This document shows, piece by piece, positions 1 to 8,190 of a DNA stretch of 8,307 nucleotides (the first letter of the stretch is position 1; every line of letters begins with the position of its first letter). The stretch lies in NCBI GenBank assembly GCA_016193065.1, contig JACPSX010000167.1:1-8307 (forward strand). Direction: 5' to 3'. The position numbers were made by a program, and so were the translations under genes. The notes beneath the pieces were generated by a model. That model worked only from the letters and a program-made list of their open reading frames with translations. It had not been told where the DNA came from and did no database searches. The stretch is from Candidatus Tectimicrobiota bacterium (lineage in GTDB: Bacteria; JACPSX01).

Positions 1-442
1 CAAAGGGGAAAAGGAAGTCGGTAAACAGGGCGCGCCCGATGGCCTGAGTGTTGCCGGCCTGGCGCAGCACCTCCTGGGAAAAAGGCCCCCGCGGCCCCAG
101 GGGAATCCGGCCGGACAGCGCTCCCCCCAGCAGGCCCAACAAGACCAGGGCTCCAATCGATCCGGCCGTCTTGAGCCAGCTCCCCCCCTTTTCCTCAATG
201 TCCCCCCGGCGCAGGTTCAGGAGCATGACCACGAACAGGAAGAGAACCATGATGGCCCCCGTGTACACGATGATCTGGGCCGCCGCAATGAACTCGGCCC
301 CCAGGGTGAGGAAGAGGCCTGCCAGGGAGATGAAAGAAATAATAGCGAAGACGACGCTGTACACCGGGTGGGTCTGGAAAATCACCAGGAGGGCAGAGGC
401 CAGCATGATGGACGACAAAATGTAGAAGAGAATGGCCGGCAT
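1..442 (-). CDS. nuoJ: NADH-quinone oxidoreductase subunit J (NuoJ), C-terminus cut by window edge
   Basis: NuoJ is a membrane-arm subunit of respiratory complex I in the cytoplasmic membrane and takes part in coupling quinone reduction to proton pumping. The 147 visible residues begin MPAILFYILSSIM and show four hydrophobic segments at about residues 3-22, 28-48, 53-76 and 90-110. The third holds the family hallmark VYTGAIMVLFLFVVMLLN (about 59-76). This is the helix that carries a pi-bulge in solved complex I structures, and Tyr60 matches its conserved tyrosine. The start at 442 is set by the ATG and by GAGG about 6 nt upstream inside the end of nuoH. Only 7 bp separate it from the nuoH stop, so nuoI, which normally sits between H and J, is missing. 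The reading frame is open to position 1, where the gene leaves the window. Identification is firm. Confidence 0.96.
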   Translation of the reverse strand, partial: MPAILFYILSSIMLASALLVIFQTHPVYSVVFAIISFISLAGLFLTLGAEFIAAAQIIVYTGAIMVLFLFVVMLLNLRRGDIEEKGGSWLKTAGSIGALVLLGLLGGALSGRIPLGPRGPFSQEVLRQAGNTQAIGRALFTDFLFPF

Positions 443-449
443 CAGAACC

Positions 450-1463
450 TCAGCGCAGCAGCACGAGCCCGAGGCCCGTGAGCAGGACGTTGAGCAGCGA
501 CAGGGGAAGAAATACTTTCCACCCCAGATTCATGAGCTGGTCATAGCGAAACCGGGGGAGCGTCCAGCGCACCCACAGGAACAGGAACAGGAAGAAGGCC
601 ACCTTCCCCACAAACCAGAGGACCGGAGGGATCCCCAGGGTCCCCAGCCCGGGCAGTCCCTGCCAACCTCCGAAGTAGAGGGTGACGGCCATGGCGGAGA
701 TGGTGAACATGGCGGCATACTCGGACATGAAGAAGAGGGAAAACTTCATGCTGCTGTACTCCGTGTGATACCCGGCCACCAGCTCCGGCTCGGCTTCCGG
801 CAGGTCGAAGGGGAGGCGGTTGGTCTCGGCAAAGGCGGCGATAATGAAGATGATAAATCCCAGAGGCTGCAGGAACACATACCAGAGACCAGCCTGATCC
901 TCGACCACCCGGGTCAAGCTCAGGCTGCCGGACATCATGAGGACCCCGACCACGGACATCCCCAGGGAGAGCTCGTAGCTGATCATTTGAGCCGAGGAAC
1001 GCAGGCCTCCGAGCAGGGAGTATTTGTTGTTGGAAGACCAGCCCGCCAGGACGATCCCGTAAACCCCCATGGAAGAGAGGGCAAATATGTAGAGGATGCC
1101 GATGTTCACGTCGGCAATTTGCAGGGGAACCGGCTCGGGCAGCAGGCCGAAAAAATCGGTGGGCGGCCCCAGCGGGATCACCGCATAGGCAGCAAAGGCC
1201 GCCACCGTGGAGATCGCCGGCGCCAGGAGGTAGATGACCTTGTCCACATGATCGGGGATGATGTCTTCCTTGAACATGAGCTTGAGCCCGTCGGCGATGG
1301 GCTGCAGGAGTCCGAAAGGGCCGACCCGGTTGGGTCCCAGACGAAGCTGGATGTGGCCGGAAACCTTGCGTTCCGCCAGCGTCATGTAGGCGACGACCCC
1401 CAGGACGGCGCCGAAAATCACGCCCACCTTCACCAGGGTCACAAGCCACCAAAGAACGGACAT
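450..1463 (-). CDS. nuoH: NADH-quinone oxidoreductase subunit H (NuoH)
   Basis: NuoH is the membrane subunit that docks the hydrophilic arm and forms much of the quinone access channel of complex I. The 337-residue protein is full length for the family and has about eight or nine hydrophobic segments. Family motifs are intact. ERKVSGHIQLRLGPNRVGP spans about 31-49 and is followed by LLQPIADGLKL. The acidic loop region has AETNRLPFDLPEAEPELVAG (about 212-230) with Glu213, 223, 225 and 227. The last loop is RWTLPRFRYDQLMNLGWK (299-316). The ATG at 1463 has GAGGG about 10 nt upstream. It follows nuoF after 54 bp, where nuoG would be expected, and precedes nuoJ by 7 bp, where nuoI would be expected. 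Nothing in the protein looks degenerate, so the gene appears to be under selection despite its missing neighbours. Confidence 0.97.
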   Translation of the reverse strand: MSVLWWLVTLVKVGVIFGAVLGVVAYMTLAERKVSGHIQLRLGPNRVGPFGLLQPIADGLKLMFKEDIIPDHVDKVIYLLAPAISTVAAFAAYAVIPLGPPTDFFGLLPEPVPLQIADVNIGILYIFALSSMGVYGIVLAGWSSNNKYSLLGGLRSSAQMISYELSLGMSVVGVLMMSGSLSLTRVVEDQAGLWYVFLQPLGFIIFIIAAFAETNRLPFDLPEAEPELVAGYHTEYSSMKFSLFFMSEYAAMFTISAMAVTLYFGGWQGLPGLGTLGIPPVLWFVGKVAFFLFLFLWVRWTLPRFRYDQLMNLGWKVFLPLSLLNVLLTGLGLVLLR

Positions 1464-1481
1464 ACGTCTTGTACCCTCTAT

Positions 1482-1497
1482 CCCGCCCAGCGGCGGG
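1482..1497. other. GC-rich stem-loop between nuoF and nuoH
   Basis: CCCGCC at 1482-1487 pairs with GGCGGG at 1492-1497 around a 4-nt loop. It lies in the 54-bp gap where nuoG would be expected. No T-run follows on the minus strand, so it is not a convincing intrinsic terminator. It could stabilise or process the mRNA upstream of nuoH. The same gap can be read on the minus strand as the end of an open frame (AVAEARRWAG then TAG), possibly a tail left by a lost gene. Confidence 0.5.
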
Positions 1498-1517
1498 CCT
1501 CAGCAACCGCGGATCTT

Positions 1518-2786
1518 TCAGGGCGCGAAAGGGCAACCCTTCCCCTGGATGTGGGATTCGTACTCGGAGCGGAAAAGCTTCACCGTGCTTTCCACCGGAG
1601 TGAGGGCTGCGTCGCCAAAAGGGCACAGGGTCTGGCCCCGAATATTGCTGCACACGTCCAGGAGCAGATCCAGGTCCTGCTGCCGCCCCCGGCCGTGCTC
1701 GATCCGCTCCAGAACCACGCTCATCCAGCGCGTCCCCTCCCGGCAGGGAGTGCACTGTCCGCAGGATTCGTGCTCGTAAAAATGGCACAGATTCAGGGCG
1801 GCCCACACCATGCAGGTCGTGTCATCCATGACGATGAACCCCGCCGACCCTAAAAGAGATCCGGCCTGGGCCACCGACTCGAAATCGAGCTTTACGTCCA
1901 GATGCTCCGCAGTCAGGAAGGGGACCGAGGATCCTCCGGGGATAAACGCCTTGAGCGGCCGGCCGCCCCGGATGCCCCCGGCGTGCTCGTAAATCAGATC
2001 GCGGGCCGTGACCCCCATGGGGAGTTCGTAAGTCCCCGGCCGGTTCACATGCCCGCTCACGCAGAACACCCGGGTGCCGGTGCTTTTCTCGGTGCCAATG
2101 GCGGCGAACCACTCGGGCCCCTTGAGCACGATGTCGGGAATGTTGGCCAGGGTCTCCACGTTGTTGATCACCGTCGGGCCGCCGAACAGGCCCCGTGTAG
2201 CCGGGAACGGGGGCTTCACCCTGGGTTCGCCGCGCTTGCCCTCCAGGGATTCCATGAGGGCGGTCTCCTCCCCGCAAATATAGGCTCCGGCTCCGCGATG
2301 GACGTAGATCTCCAGGTGAAAATCGCTGCCCAGGATGTTGTTCCCCAGGAATCCGGCCCGCTGAGCTTCAGCGATGGCTTGCTCGAGCACCCGGGCCCCG
2401 AACACCATCTCCCCCCGGATGTAGATGTAGGCCGTATGGATTCCAATCGCGTAGCAGGTCAGGGTGATCCCCTCCAGGAGAAGATGGGGATCCTTCTCGA
2501 TGATGACCCGATCCTTAAATGTCCCGGGCTCGCTCTCGTCGGCATTGCAGCACAGGTATTTGGGGAGCTTGGATTCCTTGGGAACGAAACTCCACTTGAG
2601 TCCCGCGGGAAACCCGGCCCCGCCCCGCCCCCGCAGTCCGGAGCGCTTGACAATGTCAATCAGGTCGTCGGGCTTTATCTCTTTAAGAGCCTTTTCCAGG
2701 GCCCGGTACCCGCCACGCGCCCTGTAGGTCTCCAGCTCGCGGGAGTTCGGGGCCTCCACATTCTTAAACACGATTCTCTCGGCCAC
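1518..2786 (-). CDS. nuoF: NADH-quinone oxidoreductase subunit F (NuoF), FMN- and NADH-binding
   Basis: NuoF oxidises NADH: it binds NADH and FMN and carries the [4Fe-4S] cluster N3, the entry point of electrons into complex I on the cytoplasmic side. The 422 residues are normal family length. The NADH/FMN-binding glycine-rich loop is RGRGGAGFPAGLKW (52-65). FMN-site motifs are CNADESEPGTFKDR (80-93) and GAGAYICGEETALM (165-178). An SLBB-like ubiquitin fold covers about 243-290. The cluster ligands are Cys342, Cys345 and Cys348 (SCGQCTPCREG) and Cys388 (TLCPFGD). The start is a GTG at 2786, chosen for the strong GGGAGGG site a few nt upstream and the MAERIVFKNV beginning. It lies 9 bp after the nuoE stop, as in the usual E-F pair. 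NuoG, its normal electron acceptor and usual next gene, is absent downstream. Confidence 0.98.
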   Translation of the reverse strand: MAERIVFKNVEAPNSRELETYRARGGYRALEKALKEIKPDDLIDIVKRSGLRGRGGAGFPAGLKWSFVPKESKLPKYLCCNADESEPGTFKDRVIIEKDPHLLLEGITLTCYAIGIHTAYIYIRGEMVFGARVLEQAIAEAQRAGFLGNNILGSDFHLEIYVHRGAGAYICGEETALMESLEGKRGEPRVKPPFPATRGLFGGPTVINNVETLANIPDIVLKGPEWFAAIGTEKSTGTRVFCVSGHVNRPGTYELPMGVTARDLIYEHAGGIRGGRPLKAFIPGGSSVPFLTAEHLDVKLDFESVAQAGSLLGSAGFIVMDDTTCMVWAALNLCHFYEHESCGQCTPCREGTRWMSVVLERIEHGRGRQQDLDLLLDVCSNIRGQTLCPFGDAALTPVESTVKLFRSEYESHIQGKGCPFAP

Positions 2787-2795
2787 AGTCCCTCC

Positions 2796-3266
2796 CTATT
2801 CCCGAGAGAGTTGTTCCAAGATCCGATCCACCTTTTCCAGGTTCAGCCCCTCGTAGTAGTCATCATTAATCTGGATCACCGGAGCGGTTCCGCAGGAGGC
2901 CAGGCATTCGACGGTGACCAGGCTGAACTTCCCGTCGGGGGTGGTCTCTCCCACCTCGATGCCCAGCTTCCCTTTCAGGTATTCCAGGATCTTCCGGCTT
3001 CCGCACAGCGCGCAGGGCAACGTGCGGCAGACCTGGATCACGTACTTCCCCATCTTCTCCTTGTAGAACATCGTGTAAAAAGAAGCCACGCTGTGGACGT
3101 AGGTCGGGGAGAGAGCCAGAAGTCCCGCCACAAAGTCGATGGCTTCCTTGGACACGTACCCCACTTCGGACTGCACGAGATGAAGGGTGGGAAGGAGAGC
3201 CGCCTGCTTGTTGGGATAGCGCTTGAGCAGTTGCTGAAATTTCTCCATTCCTGCCGGTGAAAGCAT
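2796..3266 (-). CDS. nuoE: NADH-quinone oxidoreductase subunit E (NuoE), [2Fe-2S] protein
   Basis: NuoE is the small thioredoxin-fold subunit of the NADH dehydrogenase module and holds [2Fe-2S] cluster N1a next to the FMN of NuoF. The 156 residues match family length. Ligand cysteines follow the family spacing: Cys80-x4-Cys85 (VCRTLPCALCGS) and Cys121-x3-Cys125 (ECLASCGTAP). The N-terminal helical part has HLVQSEVGYVSKEAI (29-43) and SVASFYTMF (59-67), also typical. The ATG at 3266 is preceded by AGAGGCGACGGAGCC, giving a good ribosome site; an internal ATG at Met7 (3248) is less likely. The gene starts 15 bp after the nuoC stop. The roughly 1.2-kb nuoD gene that normally lies between C and E is missing. 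Confidence 0.97.
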   Translation of the reverse strand: MLSPAGMEKFQQLLKRYPNKQAALLPTLHLVQSEVGYVSKEAIDFVAGLLALSPTYVHSVASFYTMFYKEKMGKYVIQVCRTLPCALCGSRKILEYLKGKLGIEVGETTPDGKFSLVTVECLASCGTAPVIQINDDYYEGLNLEKVDRILEQLSRE

Positions 3267-3281
3267 GGCTCCGTCGCCTCT

Positions 3282-3764
3282 TTAGGACTGCTCGCGCTTA
3301 CCCCGCAGGGGAAAGTCCTTCCGCAAGGGGTAGCCCTCAAAACCGTCGGGGGTCAGGATTCTCCGCAAGTCCGGATGCGCGCTGAAGGTGATCCCGTACA
3401 TGTCGTAGATTTCCCTCTCCAGCCAATTGGCCGCGGGCCAGACGGATACCACCGAGGGGAGAGAACAGGAGTCAGCCGGAACCCCGACCTTGAGGCGGAC
3501 CCGAAGCTGCCGGCTCAGAGCGTAGAGGTGATAGACAACCTCGAAGCGGGGGTGGCGATCCAAATAATCCACCCCGCAGAGGTCGCTCAGGTAGGTAAAC
3601 TCCAGCTCCGGGTCATCGCGCAGGAACTGGCAGACTTCCCGGATCAGCTCGCGCTGGATGGTCAACGTGGGCCAGCCCTGAGATTCTCCCGCCTCGAGCA
3701 CCGCCGCAGGGAAAGACTGGCGCGTCTTGCGCACCACAAGGTCATCCGCCACCTTCCCCTCCAT
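3282..3764 (-). CDS. nuoC: NADH-quinone oxidoreductase subunit C (NuoC, 30-kDa subunit)
   Basis: NuoC is a cofactor-free structural subunit of the peripheral arm that packs against NuoD and NuoB near the quinone site. The 160-residue protein is a free-standing NuoC, not a NuoCD fusion, since TAA follows at once. The C-terminal family signature is intact: NWLEREIYDMYGI (113-125) and then RRILTPDGFEGYPLRKDFPL (134-153). The central part has DLCGVDYLDR followed by a beta-rich domain, as in the family. The start is less certain. ATG 3764 has only a weak GGGA upstream, lying in a small hairpin. An in-frame GTG four codons later has GGAGGGG just before it. The frame is open back to the nuoA stop but has no ATG. 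Its usual neighbours nuoB (upstream) and nuoD (downstream) are both absent. Confidence 0.96.
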   Translation of the reverse strand: MEGKVADDLVVRKTRQSFPAAVLEAGESQGWPTLTIQRELIREVCQFLRDDPELEFTYLSDLCGVDYLDRHPRFEVVYHLYALSRQLRVRLKVGVPADSCSLPSVVSVWPAANWLEREIYDMYGITFSAHPDLRRILTPDGFEGYPLRKDFPLRGKREQS

Positions 3765-3767
3765 GCG

Positions 3768-3782
3768 TTTCCCGCGGGGAAA
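3768..3782. other. Stem-loop covering the nuoC ribosome binding region
   Basis: TTTCCC (3768-3773) is complementary to GGGAAA (3777-3782) around a GCG loop. On the minus-strand mRNA it ends 3 nt before the nuoC ATG and includes the only purine-rich stretch there. It could limit initiation at that ATG or favour the GTG just inside the gene. It also lies in the 69-bp nuoA-nuoC gap where nuoB would be expected. That a structure forms and has an effect is inference. Confidence 0.45.
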
Positions 3783-3833
3783 CAGCCGGCCATGGATTCC
3801 CGCCTCTTCCGGGACATCCCGTCTGCCCAGCCT

Positions 3834-4171
3834 CTACTCCCATTCAAGTGCACCCCGCTTCCAAAGGTATACGAAGCTGAGAAGCAAAATGCCGATAAAC
3901 ACCAGCATTTCGATGAAGCCGAACCAGCGCAGGTCCATGAAAACGACCGCCCAAGGGTAGAGGAAAACAGTTTCCACGTCAAACAGGATGAAGAGCATGG
4001 CGATCAAGTAAAACTTCACCGAAAAACGCAGGCGGGCATCCCGCACTCGTAGACGGAGAGCTTCACCTTCTCGTAGGTGCGCTTCCCCATGAAATGAGAC
4101 ATCACGAGAGTGCCCAGGGCAAAGCCCGTCGCCAGCAGGATTAAGATGAAAATCGGCAGGTAATCGCCCAT
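3834..4171 (-). pseudogene. nuoA: NADH-quinone oxidoreductase subunit A (NuoA), split by frameshift
   Basis: NuoA is a three-helix membrane subunit at the junction of the two arms of complex I. The ATG at 4171, with GAGGGCTGGAG before it, opens a frame coding for [12 protein letters not shown], the first membrane helix and the conserved VYECG at residues 40-44. That frame then reads MPACVFR and stops at 4016. The rest of NuoA continues in another frame from about 4046 as [20 protein letters not shown], with helices two and three and the ending GALEWE at 3834. In the family five residues, of the pattern x-x-P/S-V-G, lie between ECG and (D/S)AR. Here only two extra bases join TGC to the GAT of DAR, so 16 nt appear to be missing. 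The 3' part could only be made as a 70-residue fragment from GTG 4046. As read, no full NuoA is produced. A sequencing or assembly error is possible, because all other residues look well conserved. Confidence 0.9.
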
Positions 4172-4334: not shown

Positions 4335-4619
4335 TTAAGGGGAGAAATTCTCAGCGGCCATCTTCTCGTTCAGGAGGCGGTTCAGGCGGGGACGGTAAAT
4401 CAGATCGAAGGCTTCTTCTTTTTCCGGAAAGAGAAGGAGGGCCTCACGCTTGGCGAGATCGGCCAGCGCGACGGCCTCCTCGTAAGAAATGGAAGGCTGC
4501 AGGATCAGACTCCCGGTCAAATCGATCAGGCGCTGCAAGCGCCGGACCCTGCGCTCCTCTTCCCGGTATGCCTCATCCGATCGAGTCGGTTTTTCCGGAG
4601 CATGGGCAGGCTCAATCAC
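4335..4619 (-). CDS. Conserved-looking small protein of unknown function, 94 aa
   Basis: I do not recognise a family. The 94-residue protein starts at a GTG at 4619, which has an excellent AGGAGGG seven nt upstream, and lies 11 bp after the tolC-like stop, so it is almost certainly translated as the last gene of the export operon. It is soluble, with no signal peptide, membrane segment or cysteine. The N-terminal 30 residues are highly charged (EAYREEERRVRRLQRLIDL). The middle and C-terminal parts look helical: ISYEEAVALADLAKREALLLF (44-64), then PEKEEAFDLIYRPRLNRLL (65-83). The alternation of charged and hydrophobic residues suggests a small helical-bundle or partner-binding protein in the cytoplasm. 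A role tied to the pump is suggested only by position. Confidence 0.75.
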   Translation of the reverse strand: MIEPAHAPEKPTRSDEAYREEERRVRRLQRLIDLTGSLILQPSISYEEAVALADLAKREALLLFPEKEEAFDLIYRPRLNRLLNEKMAAENFSP

Positions 4620-4630
4620 GATAATCCCTC

Positions 4631-5980
4631 CTAGGGGGCCGGGGCAACGCCCGCGGCTTTCTCGAGGCTGGCCTGAGCCGTCCTGAAATCATAGAGGGCC
4701 TGCACGTAAGTGGTCTGGGCGTTGGTTAGCGAGACCCGGGCGTCGGTCTCCTCCAGGAGAGTCCCCACCCCCGCCTGGTACCGGCCCCGGGCCAGTTCCA
4801 GATTCTCCTGGGCCTGACGCACCACAAGCTCGCCCACGCGCACGCGCTCCTGGGCTTCTTGCAGGTTGAGAAACGCCTGCTGTACTTCGCGCCGGATCCC
4901 CAGGCGCAGGTTCTCCTCCTGGGACTTCACGTTCTCCACATTGGCCCGGGCCTCGGCCACCTGCTCCCGAGTTTCAAAGCCGCTGAAGAGATCAAAGCTT
5001 AAAACCGCCCCGAAGTTCCACGTCCGGTTCAGGGGAAACTCTTTCCCGCTGACTCCGTACCCGGCGTTCCCCGTAAGGGTGGGGAAGAAATTCGTGCGGG
5101 AAAGCTTGAGAGAATCTTCCGCAGACTGCCGTTTCGCCTTGAGGGATTTCAGTTCCGGCCGGTTCTGTTCCGCCTGCAGGAGAATGTCCGGAAGCTGGTA
5201 AGCGACTGGAGAGAAACCCAGGTTGTCCACGAGATCGTAGGAGGTGTCGTTGGGAATTCCCATGGCGTTGTTCAGCGTGACCCGGGCAAGCTCCAGGTTG
5301 TTGCGGACCCGGATCAGGTTGAGCCGGGCATTGCTCAGGTTCACCTCGGCCGATGTCACGTCAAAGCGGGGACGCACGCCCACCTCGTAGAAGCTCCTGG
5401 CCTCTTCCAGCCTCTTCTCGAACTGGGCCACGGTCTCCTCGTTGACCGCCACCAGCCGCTTGCTGGCCAGGAGCTGGTAATAAGACTGCCGCACGTTAAA
5501 GATGATCTGATCCCGGACCGAGTTCAAGTCTTCCTGGGAGGCGCGCAGGTTATCCCGGGCCACATCCGTGCGCTCAGAGGTCCGACCGAAGTCGATCAGC
5601 GTTTGGTTCAGGTTGAGGTTCAACCCGTAGCTGTTTGAAGAGCCCGCCGTGGTCGATCCCTGGGAACGCCTGTCAAAAGGCAATTCAGTCCCGGAACGCG
5701 TGTACTGGCCGGAAACCCCAAGCTGGGGGAAAAAGCCCGACAAAGCCTGGCCGACCCGGGCCTGATTGGCCTCCACGGTGAACAGGGAAGCGCGCAAGTT
5801 GGGGTGCTGCTGAAGCGCAATTTCCACGGCCTTTTCAATGGACACGACTTTGGGCAGAGCCGGCACTTGCACCTCCTGGCCGTAACTTGGACAAACGGCC
5901 AGGAAAAGCAAGAGGAGACCGCCCGTGATCAATCCCGCCCCTCCAGCGAACTTCCCTGCGCTCTTCGGCAAACCGTTCAT
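4631..5980 (-). CDS. TolC-family outer membrane efflux/secretion channel
   Basis: A TolC-like protein (OEP family) would form a trimeric channel through the outer membrane and periplasm for substrates delivered by the adjacent ABC transporter. The start at 5980 is chosen over an upstream in-frame ATG at 6022 because AAGGAG lies 6 nt before it and because it yields a signal peptide. This has KSAGK, then a hydrophobic core at about residues 15-30, and probable signal peptidase I cleavage after SYG (34). Cys30 in LAVC is a poor lipobox. The 449 residues show the two-fold OEP repeat at about 45-240 and 262-445. Each has a long coiled-coil hairpin, for example LEEARSFYEVGVRPRFDV (191-208) and LELARGRYQAGVGTLLEE (394-411), and the second beta segment has FDLFSGFETR. 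It lies 108 bp after the permease gene, in a gap holding a heptamer inverted repeat. No adaptor gene is next to it. Confidence 0.95.
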   Translation of the reverse strand: MNGLPKSAGKFAGGAGLITGGLLLLFLAVCPSYGQEVQVPALPKVVSIEKAVEIALQQHPNLRASLFTVEANQARVGQALSGFFPQLGVSGQYTRSGTELPFDRRSQGSTTAGSSNSYGLNLNLNQTLIDFGRTSERTDVARDNLRASQEDLNSVRDQIIFNVRQSYYQLLASKRLVAVNEETVAQFEKRLEEARSFYEVGVRPRFDVTSAEVNLSNARLNLIRVRNNLELARVTLNNAMGIPNDTSYDLVDNLGFSPVAYQLPDILLQAEQNRPELKSLKAKRQSAEDSLKLSRTNFFPTLTGNAGYGVSGKEFPLNRTWNFGAVLSFDLFSGFETREQVAEARANVENVKSQEENLRLGIRREVQQAFLNLQEAQERVRVGELVVRQAQENLELARGRYQAGVGTLLEETDARVSLTNAQTTYVQALYDFRTAQASLEKAAGVAPAP

Positions 5981-6024
5981 CTCAGTCTCCTTATGTACTG
6001 AATGATTCCAGCGCACAAGCACCT

Positions 6025-6084
6025 GCTCTCAGCTGTCGGCCATCCGTGGGGAAATTTTTCGGCTGACGGCTGATCGCTGAACGC
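6025..6084. repeat. Heptamer repeat (copy 2) and imperfect inverted repeat between permease and tolC-like genes
   Basis: Three TGANNGC units run on the plus strand at 6064-6084 (TGACGGC, TGATCGC, TGAACGC). A 17-bp arm at 6025-6041 is the reverse complement of 6061-6077 at 13 of 17 positions, giving an imperfect hairpin with a 19-nt loop. It fills most of the 108-bp gap between the permease stop and the tolC-like start. In the operon mRNA it could act as a stability or processing structure. No T-run follows, so it is not a clear terminator. It is the inverted relative of the repeat at 4279-4306. Confidence 0.65.
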
Positions 6085-6088
6085 TTCT

Positions 6089-7318
6089 TTATTCATAGCG
6101 CAGGGCGTCGATGGGATTCAAGCTGGCCGCTTTCCGGGCCGGATAAAAGCCGAAGAAAACCCCCACGGCGCCCGAAAACCCGAAGGACATGACGAGGGAC
6201 AGGGGAGTAATGAAGACCGGCCACTTGGCCCACAGCGAGATCCCCTTGGCCACCCCCACACCGAGAAGAATCCCCACCAGCCCTCCGGTGGTGCTCAGCA
6301 CGATCGCTTCCACGAGAAATTGCTTCAAGATGTCGCGGCGCCGGGCCCCGACGGCCATGCGGACCCCAATCTCCCGGGTCCTCTCGGTCACCGAGACCAG
6401 CAAGATGTTCATGATGCCGATGCCCCCAACCAGGAGTGAAACGGAGGCAATGCTCCCCAGCAGGAGGGTCATTACCGAGGCGGTGGCCTGAGCCGTGGCC
6501 CCGATATCTTCCAGTGATCGAACCGTGAAATCGTCCTCTTCGGACTGAATCCGGTGGCGGCGCCGCAACACCTCCGTGATCTGCTTTTGGGCCTCGGTCA
6601 CCTGCAAGGGGCCCACGGCGGAGACCACGATGCTGCTCACCGTTCCCAAAAACCGGCTTCCCACTACCCGCCGCTCCGCGGTGGTGAAGGGGATCAACAC
6701 CGTATCGTCCTGGTCCTGATGGCCAAAGGCGGATTGCCCCTTGGCTGCCAGCACGCCGATGATCCGCAGAGGGATGTTCCGGATGCGCAGGATCTGTCCC
6801 ACCGGGTCCTCCCCCGGAGCGAAGAGATTCTTAGCGACACTCTGCCCCAACACGACCACGGAGGTGCCCCCGTCAACGTCCTGCTGGGTGAAGAATTCGC
6901 CCGCTACCAGAGGCCAGTCGCGAATCTGCACGTATTCCGGAAACACGCCCTGGATACTCGTAAACCAGTTCTGATCCCGATAAACTGCCTGGGCGGCACC
7001 CCGCTTCACGGGGGAAACCAGACCGACGGCAGAGCTCTCCTGCCGGATGGCTTCCATATCGGCCATGGTCAGGGTAGAGGAAGCTCCGGCCCCCATTCGA
7101 ACCCCGCCGCTTGTAACGCTGCCGGGGAAAATCACCAGCATGTTGGAGCCGATGGCCGCGATGCTCTGCTGAATAGAAGCCTTGGCCCCTTGACCAACGG
7201 CCAGCATGGCGATCACGGAGCCCACCCCGATAATCACCCCCAGCATGGTAAGGGCGGTGCGCAGACGATTTTTTCCCAGGGCCTTATAGGAAACGCGGCA
7301 AATCGCCAGCAGGTTCAT
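6089..7318 (-). CDS. MacB/FtsX-type ABC transporter permease
   Basis: This is the membrane subunit of a type VII (MacB-like mechanotransmission) ABC exporter, which moves substrates from the periplasm outwards through a TolC channel rather than across the inner membrane. The 409 residues have the family layout. The N-terminal helix is at about 22-42 (LTMLGVIIGVGSVIAMLAVG). A large periplasmic MacB_PCD domain spans about 45-270. Three C-terminal helices lie near 282-308, 334-360 and 372-392. The cytoplasmic hallmark SVTERTREIGVRMAVGARRRDI (309-330) and the ending PARKAASLNPIDALRYE are typical. The ATG overlaps the ATPase stop as ATGA, implying translational coupling and equal production. Unlike E. 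coli MacB, the ATPase is a separate chain. The substrate cannot be told from sequence: macrolides, peptides and siderophores are all handled by this family. Confidence 0.96.
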   Translation of the reverse strand: MNLLAICRVSYKALGKNRLRTALTMLGVIIGVGSVIAMLAVGQGAKASIQQSIAAIGSNMLVIFPGSVTSGGVRMGAGASSTLTMADMEAIRQESSAVGLVSPVKRGAAQAVYRDQNWFTSIQGVFPEYVQIRDWPLVAGEFFTQQDVDGGTSVVVLGQSVAKNLFAPGEDPVGQILRIRNIPLRIIGVLAAKGQSAFGHQDQDDTVLIPFTTAERRVVGSRFLGTVSSIVVSAVGPLQVTEAQKQITEVLRRRHRIQSEEDDFTVRSLEDIGATAQATASVMTLLLGSIASVSLLVGGIGIMNILLVSVTERTREIGVRMAVGARRRDILKQFLVEAIVLSTTGGLVGILLGVGVAKGISLWAKWPVFITPLSLVMSFGFSGAVGVFFGFYPARKAASLNPIDALRYE

Positions 7319-8037
7319 GCGCCTTCTCCACGGCCAGACCCGAGAGCCACTTCCCGCCGGACACTATCCTCCGCAATGACGCCGTCCCGGAAGCGGATCT
7401 GACGCCGGGCCTGAGCGGCAATGTCGGGCTCGTGGGTGACGATAACGATGGTGACGCCCTCCTCCATGTTCAAGGCCTGAAAAAGCGCGATGATTTCCTG
7501 GCCCGTCTGGCTGTCCAGATTCCCCGTCGGCTCATCGGCCAGCAACAGAGGGGGATGATTCACCAGGGCCCGGGCAATGGCGACCCGCTGCTGCTGTCCC
7601 CCCGAAAGTTGATTTGGAAAGTGCTCTTCCCGGTCCTGGAGTCCAACGCGCTGCAGCATCCGCCGCGCGATTTCCCGGCGCTTTTTTGCCGGAGTATCCG
7701 TATAGAGCAGCGGCAGTTCCACATTCTCCCGCGCCGAGGTGCGGGACATGAGAAAAAAGTTTTGGAACACAAACCCGATCTTCTCGTTGCGCAGCCGGGC
7801 CCGCTCGTCGGATCCCATTTGCGTCACCCGGTCTTCATCAAGCCAGTAATCCCCCCGGTCGGGCAAATCGAGGCATCCCAGGATGTGCATCAATGTAGAC
7901 TTCCCCGAGCCCGAGGGTCCCGTGATGGCCACAAATTCCCCCCGCTCCACCGCCACGCTGACCCCGCGCAAAGCCTCGACCCGAACCTCTCCCAAAAGGT
8001 AGTTCTTCCAGACCTCGACGACTTCGATCAGCGGCAC
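7315..8037 (-). CDS. MacB/LolD-type ABC transporter ATP-binding protein
   Basis: This is the cytoplasmic ATPase that drives the permease encoded immediately downstream. Counting from GTG 8037 the protein has 240 residues, normal for this subfamily. Motifs are complete: Walker A GPSGSGKST (40-48), Q-loop Gln92 (FVFQNFFLM), signature LSGGQQQRVAIARAL (144-158), Walker B LLLADEP (164-170), D-loop NLDS and switch His202 (IVTHEPD). The start is problematic. Homologues begin just before the IEVxxVxKxY stretch, which here is preceded only by GTG-CCG-CTG, and this GTG lies in a terminal repeat of the MITE-like element at 8035-8190. The Shine-Dalgarno is weak (GGAACGG). The frame stays open to an ATG at 8139, but that extension is made of repeat-element sequence and is unlikely to be native. 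The insertion has probably replaced the original upstream region. Confidence 0.94.
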   Translation of the reverse strand: MPLIEVVEVWKNYLLGEVRVEALRGVSVAVERGEFVAITGPSGSGKSTLMHILGCLDLPDRGDYWLDEDRVTQMGSDERARLRNEKIGFVFQNFFLMSRTSARENVELPLLYTDTPAKKRREIARRMLQRVGLQDREEHFPNQLSGGQQQRVAIARALVNHPPLLLADEPTGNLDSQTGQEIIALFQALNMEEGVTIVIVTHEPDIAAQARRQIRFRDGVIAEDSVRREVALGSGRGEGA

Positions 8038-8190
8038 TAGTACCGTTCCAACTCTAGAGAACAAATCATGTCCATAAGTTATCCCAACTCCTCGGAACTG
8101 GGATAATTCTCCAAACCGAAAGCCCCGCCCCGATGACACCGGACTTTGCCGCCCGACCCTTTGTCCGAACCAGTTGGAACGGCACTAGTA
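8035..8190. mobile_element. MITE-like element with 19-bp terminal inverted repeats
   Basis: The left end CACTAGTACCGTTCCAACT (8035-8053) and the reverse complement of the right end, TACTAGTGCCGTTCCAACT (8172-8190), agree at 17 of 19 positions. The element is about 156 bp with no coding capacity. Its interior holds an 8-bp stem-loop at 8079-8106. CTAG, or ACTAGT, is present at both tips and could be a target duplication or part of the ends. The left tip overlaps the ATPase start codon. No transposase is in the window, so if mobile it would depend on one elsewhere. It could instead be a non-mobile palindromic repeat pair. Confidence 0.55.
8079..8106. other. Stem-loop inside the MITE-like element
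   Basis: TTATCCCA (8079-8086) is perfectly complementary to TGGGATAA (8099-8106) across a 12-nt loop. It sits about 40 bp upstream of the ATPase GTG, within any mRNA leader or promoter region. It could be an operator-like palindrome or just part of the element's folded structure. I saw no convincing promoter pair around it. Confidence 0.5.

Follow-up and report, generated by a model that had tools for sequence, protein, structure and literature searches.

In the canonical nuoA-N operon, as found in Nitrospirota and others, all 14 subunits of complex I are encoded in one contiguous row. Split nuo clusters are already known as well. According to a survey from 2025, most complex I clades are a mixture of single-cluster and split gene sets (PMC12361115), and in Nitrospina gracilis the genes of NUO-2 are dispersed over several loci (PMC3578206). 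The gene set described here agrees with the canonical operon in the total of 14 subunits and in the relative order of the remaining operon genes, but nuoB, nuoD, nuoG and nuoI are not in place. With NUO-2 it shares the dispersal over several loci; NUO-2 differs in its partition (ACHIJKLMN, EGD, B, F), its altered NuoF and NuoG and its proposed use of ferredoxin (PMC3578206). The partition into ten genes (A-C-E-F-H-J-K-L-M-N) and four genes (B-D-I-G) represents a further variant of such splits, of which no description was found in the open-access literature searched.

The window, i.e., the whole stretch of 8,307 nucleotides which was analyzed, represents contig C32 in full, one contig of a MAG of 2.9 Mb that consists of 294 contigs and is 86% complete. 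As all 40 comparison genomes drawn for this MAG are related to it at the level "same domain" only, the host seems to represent an isolated lineage.

Reduced nuo Operon in the Window

ORFs combined with profile HMM matches (NCBIfam/TIGRFAM) revealed the gene order nuoA-C-E-F-H-J on the minus strand of the window (Table 1). This order, together with spacers of 69 bp (A/C), 15 bp (C/E), 54 bp (F/H) and 7 bp (H/J), had been described in an earlier note on the sequence and was hereby confirmed. The spacers leave no room for nuoB, nuoD, nuoG and nuoI, which are absent from exactly these four positions of a contiguous nuoA-N operon. Of the genes that were regarded as intact in the same note, nuoC, nuoE, nuoF and nuoH are indeed full-length, whereas the reading of nuoJ stops because the contig ends there. 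A further qualification concerns nuoA, which is frameshifted near 4030-4046 and thus present as two halves in different frames; the sequence between YECG and RFSVKFY, in which the frame is lost, falls about 16 nt short of its length in relatives. NuoF contains the FMN/NADH motifs and the cluster motif ESCGQCTPC. Since every subunit was matched by a profile HMM and splits of this kind occur in other genomes, too, the reduced operon is not a product of chance.

The operon continues on another contig. C32 is joined through its end to the start of C21 by an exact overlap of 21 bp, across which the nuoJ frame stays open to its stop. Among the host contigs compared, no other exact end overlap was found, setting aside three contigs consisting entirely of N. 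As the overlap carries nuoJ into nuoK to nuoN, the operon comprises ten genes. On its other side, 5' of nuoA, the minus strand of the window (4335-4619 and 4631-8139) carries a 94-aa ORF without family match as well as genes encoding a TolC-like efflux protein of the outer membrane and, of the MacB-like kind, a permease and ATPase.

Table 1. Complex I genes of the two loci and the neighboring methyltransferase gene.
Gene	Contig	Position	Strand	Remarks
nuoA, 5' part	C32 (window)	4016..4171	-	51-aa ORF; NCBIfam NuoA match, profile positions 1-46
nuoA, 3' part, other frame	C32 (window)	3834..4046	-	NCBIfam NuoA match, C-terminal half; sequence reading
nuoC	C32 (window)	3282..3764	-	TIGR01961, above cut-off
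nuoE	C32 (window)	2796..3266	-	TIGR01958, above cut-off; 2Fe-2S ligand motifs CRTLPC, CLASC
nuoF, GTG start	C32 (window)	1518..2786	-	TIGR01959 equivalog, above cut-off
nuoH	C32 (window)	450..1463	-	NCBIfam NuoH models, best 445 bits
nuoJ, truncated at contig end	C32 (window)	1..442	-	NCBIfam NuoJ models
nuoJ end, then nuoK, nuoL, nuoM, nuoN	C21 (L012)			continuation of the C32 operon
nuoB	C152 (L011)	4545-4012		passes NCBIfam cut-off
nuoD	C152 (L011)	4001-2811		passes NCBIfam cut-off
nuoI	C152 (L011)	2807-2244		passes NCBIfam cut-off
nuoG	C152 (L011)	2092-491		468 bits; NCBIfam cut-off 470
NDUFAF7/MidA-family methyltransferase gene	C152 (L011)	5955-7178		upstream of nuoB

The Four Absent Genes Form a Block on Another Contig

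The earlier note proposed to search the genome for nuoB, nuoD, nuoG and nuoI and considered that the four genes might be encoded together elsewhere in a dispersed complex I. In searches of the whole genome all four subunits converged on a single contig, C152, where this expectation was borne out by a block nuoB-nuoD-nuoI-nuoG with one direction of transcription and intergenic gaps of 10, 3, and 151 bp. The NuoG protein, with 533 aa, is similar in size to its relatives (542-571 aa, stop to stop) and carries Fe-S ligand motifs. In NuoB the motifs ACC and GCPP and in NuoI two CxxCxxCxxxC motifs were read from the sequences. Upstream of the block and in the same direction there are genes encoding a GlcF-like Fe-S protein, a MidA/NDUFAF7-family methyltransferase and a ferritin-like protein.

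The ten genes of C32/C21 and the four genes of C152 add up to exactly one set of the 14 core subunits, with A, C, E, F, H, and J on the window, K to N on C21 and B, D, I, and G on C152; nuoA is counted here in spite of its frameshift. Motifs of the FMN/NADH site and of the Fe-S ligands are present in NuoE, NuoF, NuoG, NuoB and NuoI, as determined by a check of motifs, not of structure.

An inverted repeat of 43 nt brackets the glcF-nuoBDIG block (C152, 73-115 and 5978-6020). Its core belongs to a low-copy dispersed repeat with the hairpin core GGGTACCCGCGCTTCGCGGGTGTTGCGC, which occurs at five places in the genome and is also found on C279, C246 and C15. For this reason the flanking repeats were not taken as evidence for transposition.

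Evidence Linking the Two Loci

The tie between C152 and C32 is based on binning, composition and phylogeny. In the phylogenetic tree, NuoD of C152 falls into a clade with NuoD from window-type operons of Methylomirabilota, Acidobacteriota and Zixibacteria (support 100/98), and a topology in which it was constrained to the NuoD proteins of the second complex was rejected (AU test, p = 0.006). NuoB and NuoI of C152 likewise lie within the matching window-type clades with support of 100/99 and 99/98, respectively. Both of these clades also include Zixibacteria operon genes, and that of NuoB Acidobacteriota operon genes too. Window NuoH and NuoK of C21 are placed on the side of the window-type operons as well (SH-aLRT 94 and 86). 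Tetranucleotide composition and G+C content of C32, C21, C152 and the further contig C144 are within the spread of 32 other host contigs, with loci of other genomes lying further off, which fits an origin from a single genome.

Comparison with Relatives

For the comparison, 80 named loci were fetched with NuoF, most of which retain B, D, G, and I at their usual positions. The comparison suggested by the earlier note yielded one nearly identical reduced order and graded splits in other genomes. The former was detected in the Acidobacteria MAG L111 (JACQGI010000030.1), whose operon A-E-F-H-J-K-L is likewise devoid of B, D, G, and I and differs from the window in that nuoC is absent as well. No match for NuoB or NuoD was found in the 1.4-Mb, probably incomplete assembly of L111. 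Within the Acidobacteriota, the operons of L090, L103 and L109 are without G and I, with the shorter contigs L071 and L114 being consistent with this, and those of L095 and L102 are without B and I, in agreement with the shorter L117.

The Methylomirabilota carry a split complex I (e.g., G073) that resembles the host in that the operon is of the same type and contains neither B nor I; several of the genomes lack G there, too. Operons without B, G, and I were found in G073, G074, G077, G079 and G082, operons without B and I in G050 and G044, and an operon without B, C, D, and I in G056. As these versions are graded and G073 consists of a single contig of 2,752,854 bp, such splits are real and not the result of an assembly collapse. 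The Methylomirabilota possess stand-alone nuoB-nuoI genes, often beside a gene of the ErpA/IscA family and in some cases near 2-oxoglutarate:ferredoxin-oxidoreductase-like and glycolate-oxidase-like genes, and their products share clades with NuoB and NuoI of C152. As in the host, a second cluster, here A-C-D-H-J-K-L-M-N, is located nearby; the same genomes have a second set, including nuoG-nuoB-nuoI in several of them. In L152 and L213 nuoB and nuoI flank 2-oxoglutarate:ferredoxin-oxidoreductase-like, glcD/glcE/glcF-like and peroxiredoxin-like genes, following an ErpA/IscA-family gene; a GlcF-like gene precedes nuoB on C152, too.

The host therefore matches the Methylomirabilota in that B and I are separated from an operon which retains E-F and the membrane genes, but its nuoD is located on C152 between nuoB and nuoI, whereas in Methylomirabilota nuoD is kept in the operon or, in one subgroup, stands alone. 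Such a lone nuoD is found in G056, G058, G059 and G061, and according to our reading of the sequence it adjoins ABC-ATPase and CcmB/CcmC-like genes in G056 and G059. The two tandem clusters of the Methylomirabilota are furthermore arranged in reversed order. A B-D-I-G block was seen in none of the genomes compared other than that of the host.

The sets missing in relatives are B,I, B,G,I, G,I, B,C,D,I and B,C,D,G,I, and in all splits seen here the relocated genes derive from B, C, D, G, and I. The view of the earlier note that the missing genes form a coherent functional group is thus valid insofar as peripheral-arm genes are always concerned, but the exact set varies between relatives.

Second Set of Complex I Genes

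Directly after nuoN, contig C21 carries a second partial cluster, A-C-D-H-J-K-L-M, which is cut by the contig end. Irregularities of the two clusters of C21 fall at 701-3073 and 7160-9261. In the first cluster the nuoL frame runs on into nuoM for about 500 bp; in the second, nuoD is short and shows a gap when set against the family model, and nuoH contains a run of N. The N run and the nuoL overrun are regarded as defects of the assembly. The second cluster had been expected to be orthologous to the second cluster of the Methylomirabilota, on which the trees of NuoD and NuoH did not decide. The C152 proteins could in principle be shared with this cluster.

On C144 (L013, 12550-18388) there is a second nuoI-nuoB pair, after which come genes of the NuoE-like and NuoF-like kind and a formate dehydrogenase alpha gene. 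A short NuoB match had initially led to the assumption of a Hox hydrogenase, which was replaced by this gene content upon reading of the DNA. The NuoF relative has an identity of 44% and adjoins the formate dehydrogenase alpha gene. These genes are candidates for the partners and the formate input of the second C21 cluster. An affiliation of this NuoB and NuoI with the second ("beta") set of the Methylomirabilota had been expected and was not shown by the trees.

The second nuoB (C144, 13087-13566) contains an in-frame TGA at 13201-13203, exactly where the CC motif that binds cluster N2 would have its second Cys (FGLAC*AIEMM). This position is occupied by Cys in 138 of 138 other matches in the loci examined. 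Candidate readings of the codon are selenocysteine, a nonsense mutation and a sequence error, of which selenocysteine was not supported by the tests made: the FdhA following nuoB carries Cys, the fold downstream of the TGA is unremarkable (z -0.45), and a scan of approximately 15% of the host genome revealed no tRNA-Sec.

A Probable Single Complex I Encoded at Two Loci

Taken together, the host very probably possesses one ordinary 14-subunit NADH:quinone complex I encoded at two loci, the operon on C32 and C21 and the block on C152, with the split representing an evolved operon rearrangement. Two transcripts giving rise to one ordinary complex would be the simplest account, the subunits of both loci presumably meeting after translation and assembling in trans into a working enzyme. 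Thereby NuoE and NuoF would accept the electrons from NADH, NuoG, NuoI and NuoB from C152 would provide the Fe-S chain leading to cluster N2, NuoD would form the quinone site with NuoB and NuoH, and NuoA, NuoH and NuoJ to NuoN would constitute the membrane arm. The nuoBDIG genes are probably co-transcribed with the upstream GlcF-like and MidA-family genes. As far as can be judged from the sequences, the two loci may give rise to an active proton-pumping enzyme, and separate control of the block, whose neighborhood differs from that of the operon, is possible.

It is conceivable, yet unlikely, that the block together with the GlcF-like and MidA-family genes is a separately regulated module of electron wire and quinone site which can be loaded on either membrane arm, that of the window operon or that of the second cluster on C21; if so, the cell could re-wire complex I by controlling one block. 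Little credit is given to the second proposal of the earlier note, an incomplete second copy of complex I with other partner proteins, under which a complete nuo operon would be located in another part of the genome. The partial cluster on C21 and the nuoI-nuoB pair on C144 would agree with such a copy, as would the incompleteness of the assembly, but in this 86% complete assembly neither a second complete nuo operon nor another NADH-type copy was detected. Only one other NuoF relative, that of C144, was found and not a single further NuoG of this type; moreover, the trees pair B, D, and I of C152 with the window operon type.

Even less probable is a decaying operon whose complex is no longer made. 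The out-of-frame nuoA would be in line with decay, but C, E, F, H, B, D, I, and G are full-length, with ligand motifs where checked, and the absent genes are present elsewhere rather than lost. The least probable explanation in our view is that B, D, G, and I belong to the operon and were dropped during assembly. Defects of the assembly do exist, namely the nuoA frameshift, the nuoL overrun and masked or N stretches; such a loss, however, would have had to remove exactly one whole gene at each of four junctions and to leave clean short spacers. All four genes are assembled elsewhere in one block, and unrelated assemblies, one single-contig genome included, show comparable gene orders.

The two-locus complex I joins other cases in which the peripheral-arm genes B, C, D, G, and I lie apart from the operon, in combinations that differ between bacterial lineages, with the membrane-arm genes and E-F remaining together. 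Split operons of this kind offer natural material for the question of whether operon order matters for complex I assembly. They are also a warning for annotation, as an operon apparently without electron wire may have its wire genes elsewhere. In other respects the biological consequences are modest, as no gene of the set seems to be lacking.

Methyltransferase Gene Upstream of the Block

Human NDUFAF7 methylates Arg85 of NDUFS2, the homolog of NuoD, early in assembly (PMC3829151). In 19 Nitrospirota loci a MidA-family gene is located directly upstream of nuoA, and NuoD of all 19 loci has Arg at the matching position of the HxGxEK motif. On C152, NuoD carries Thr at this target position, as opposed to Arg in NuoD of the second cluster on C21. 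A modification of Arg is therefore impossible at this site of the neighboring NuoD, and the MidA-family protein may act in the second complex or on another target.
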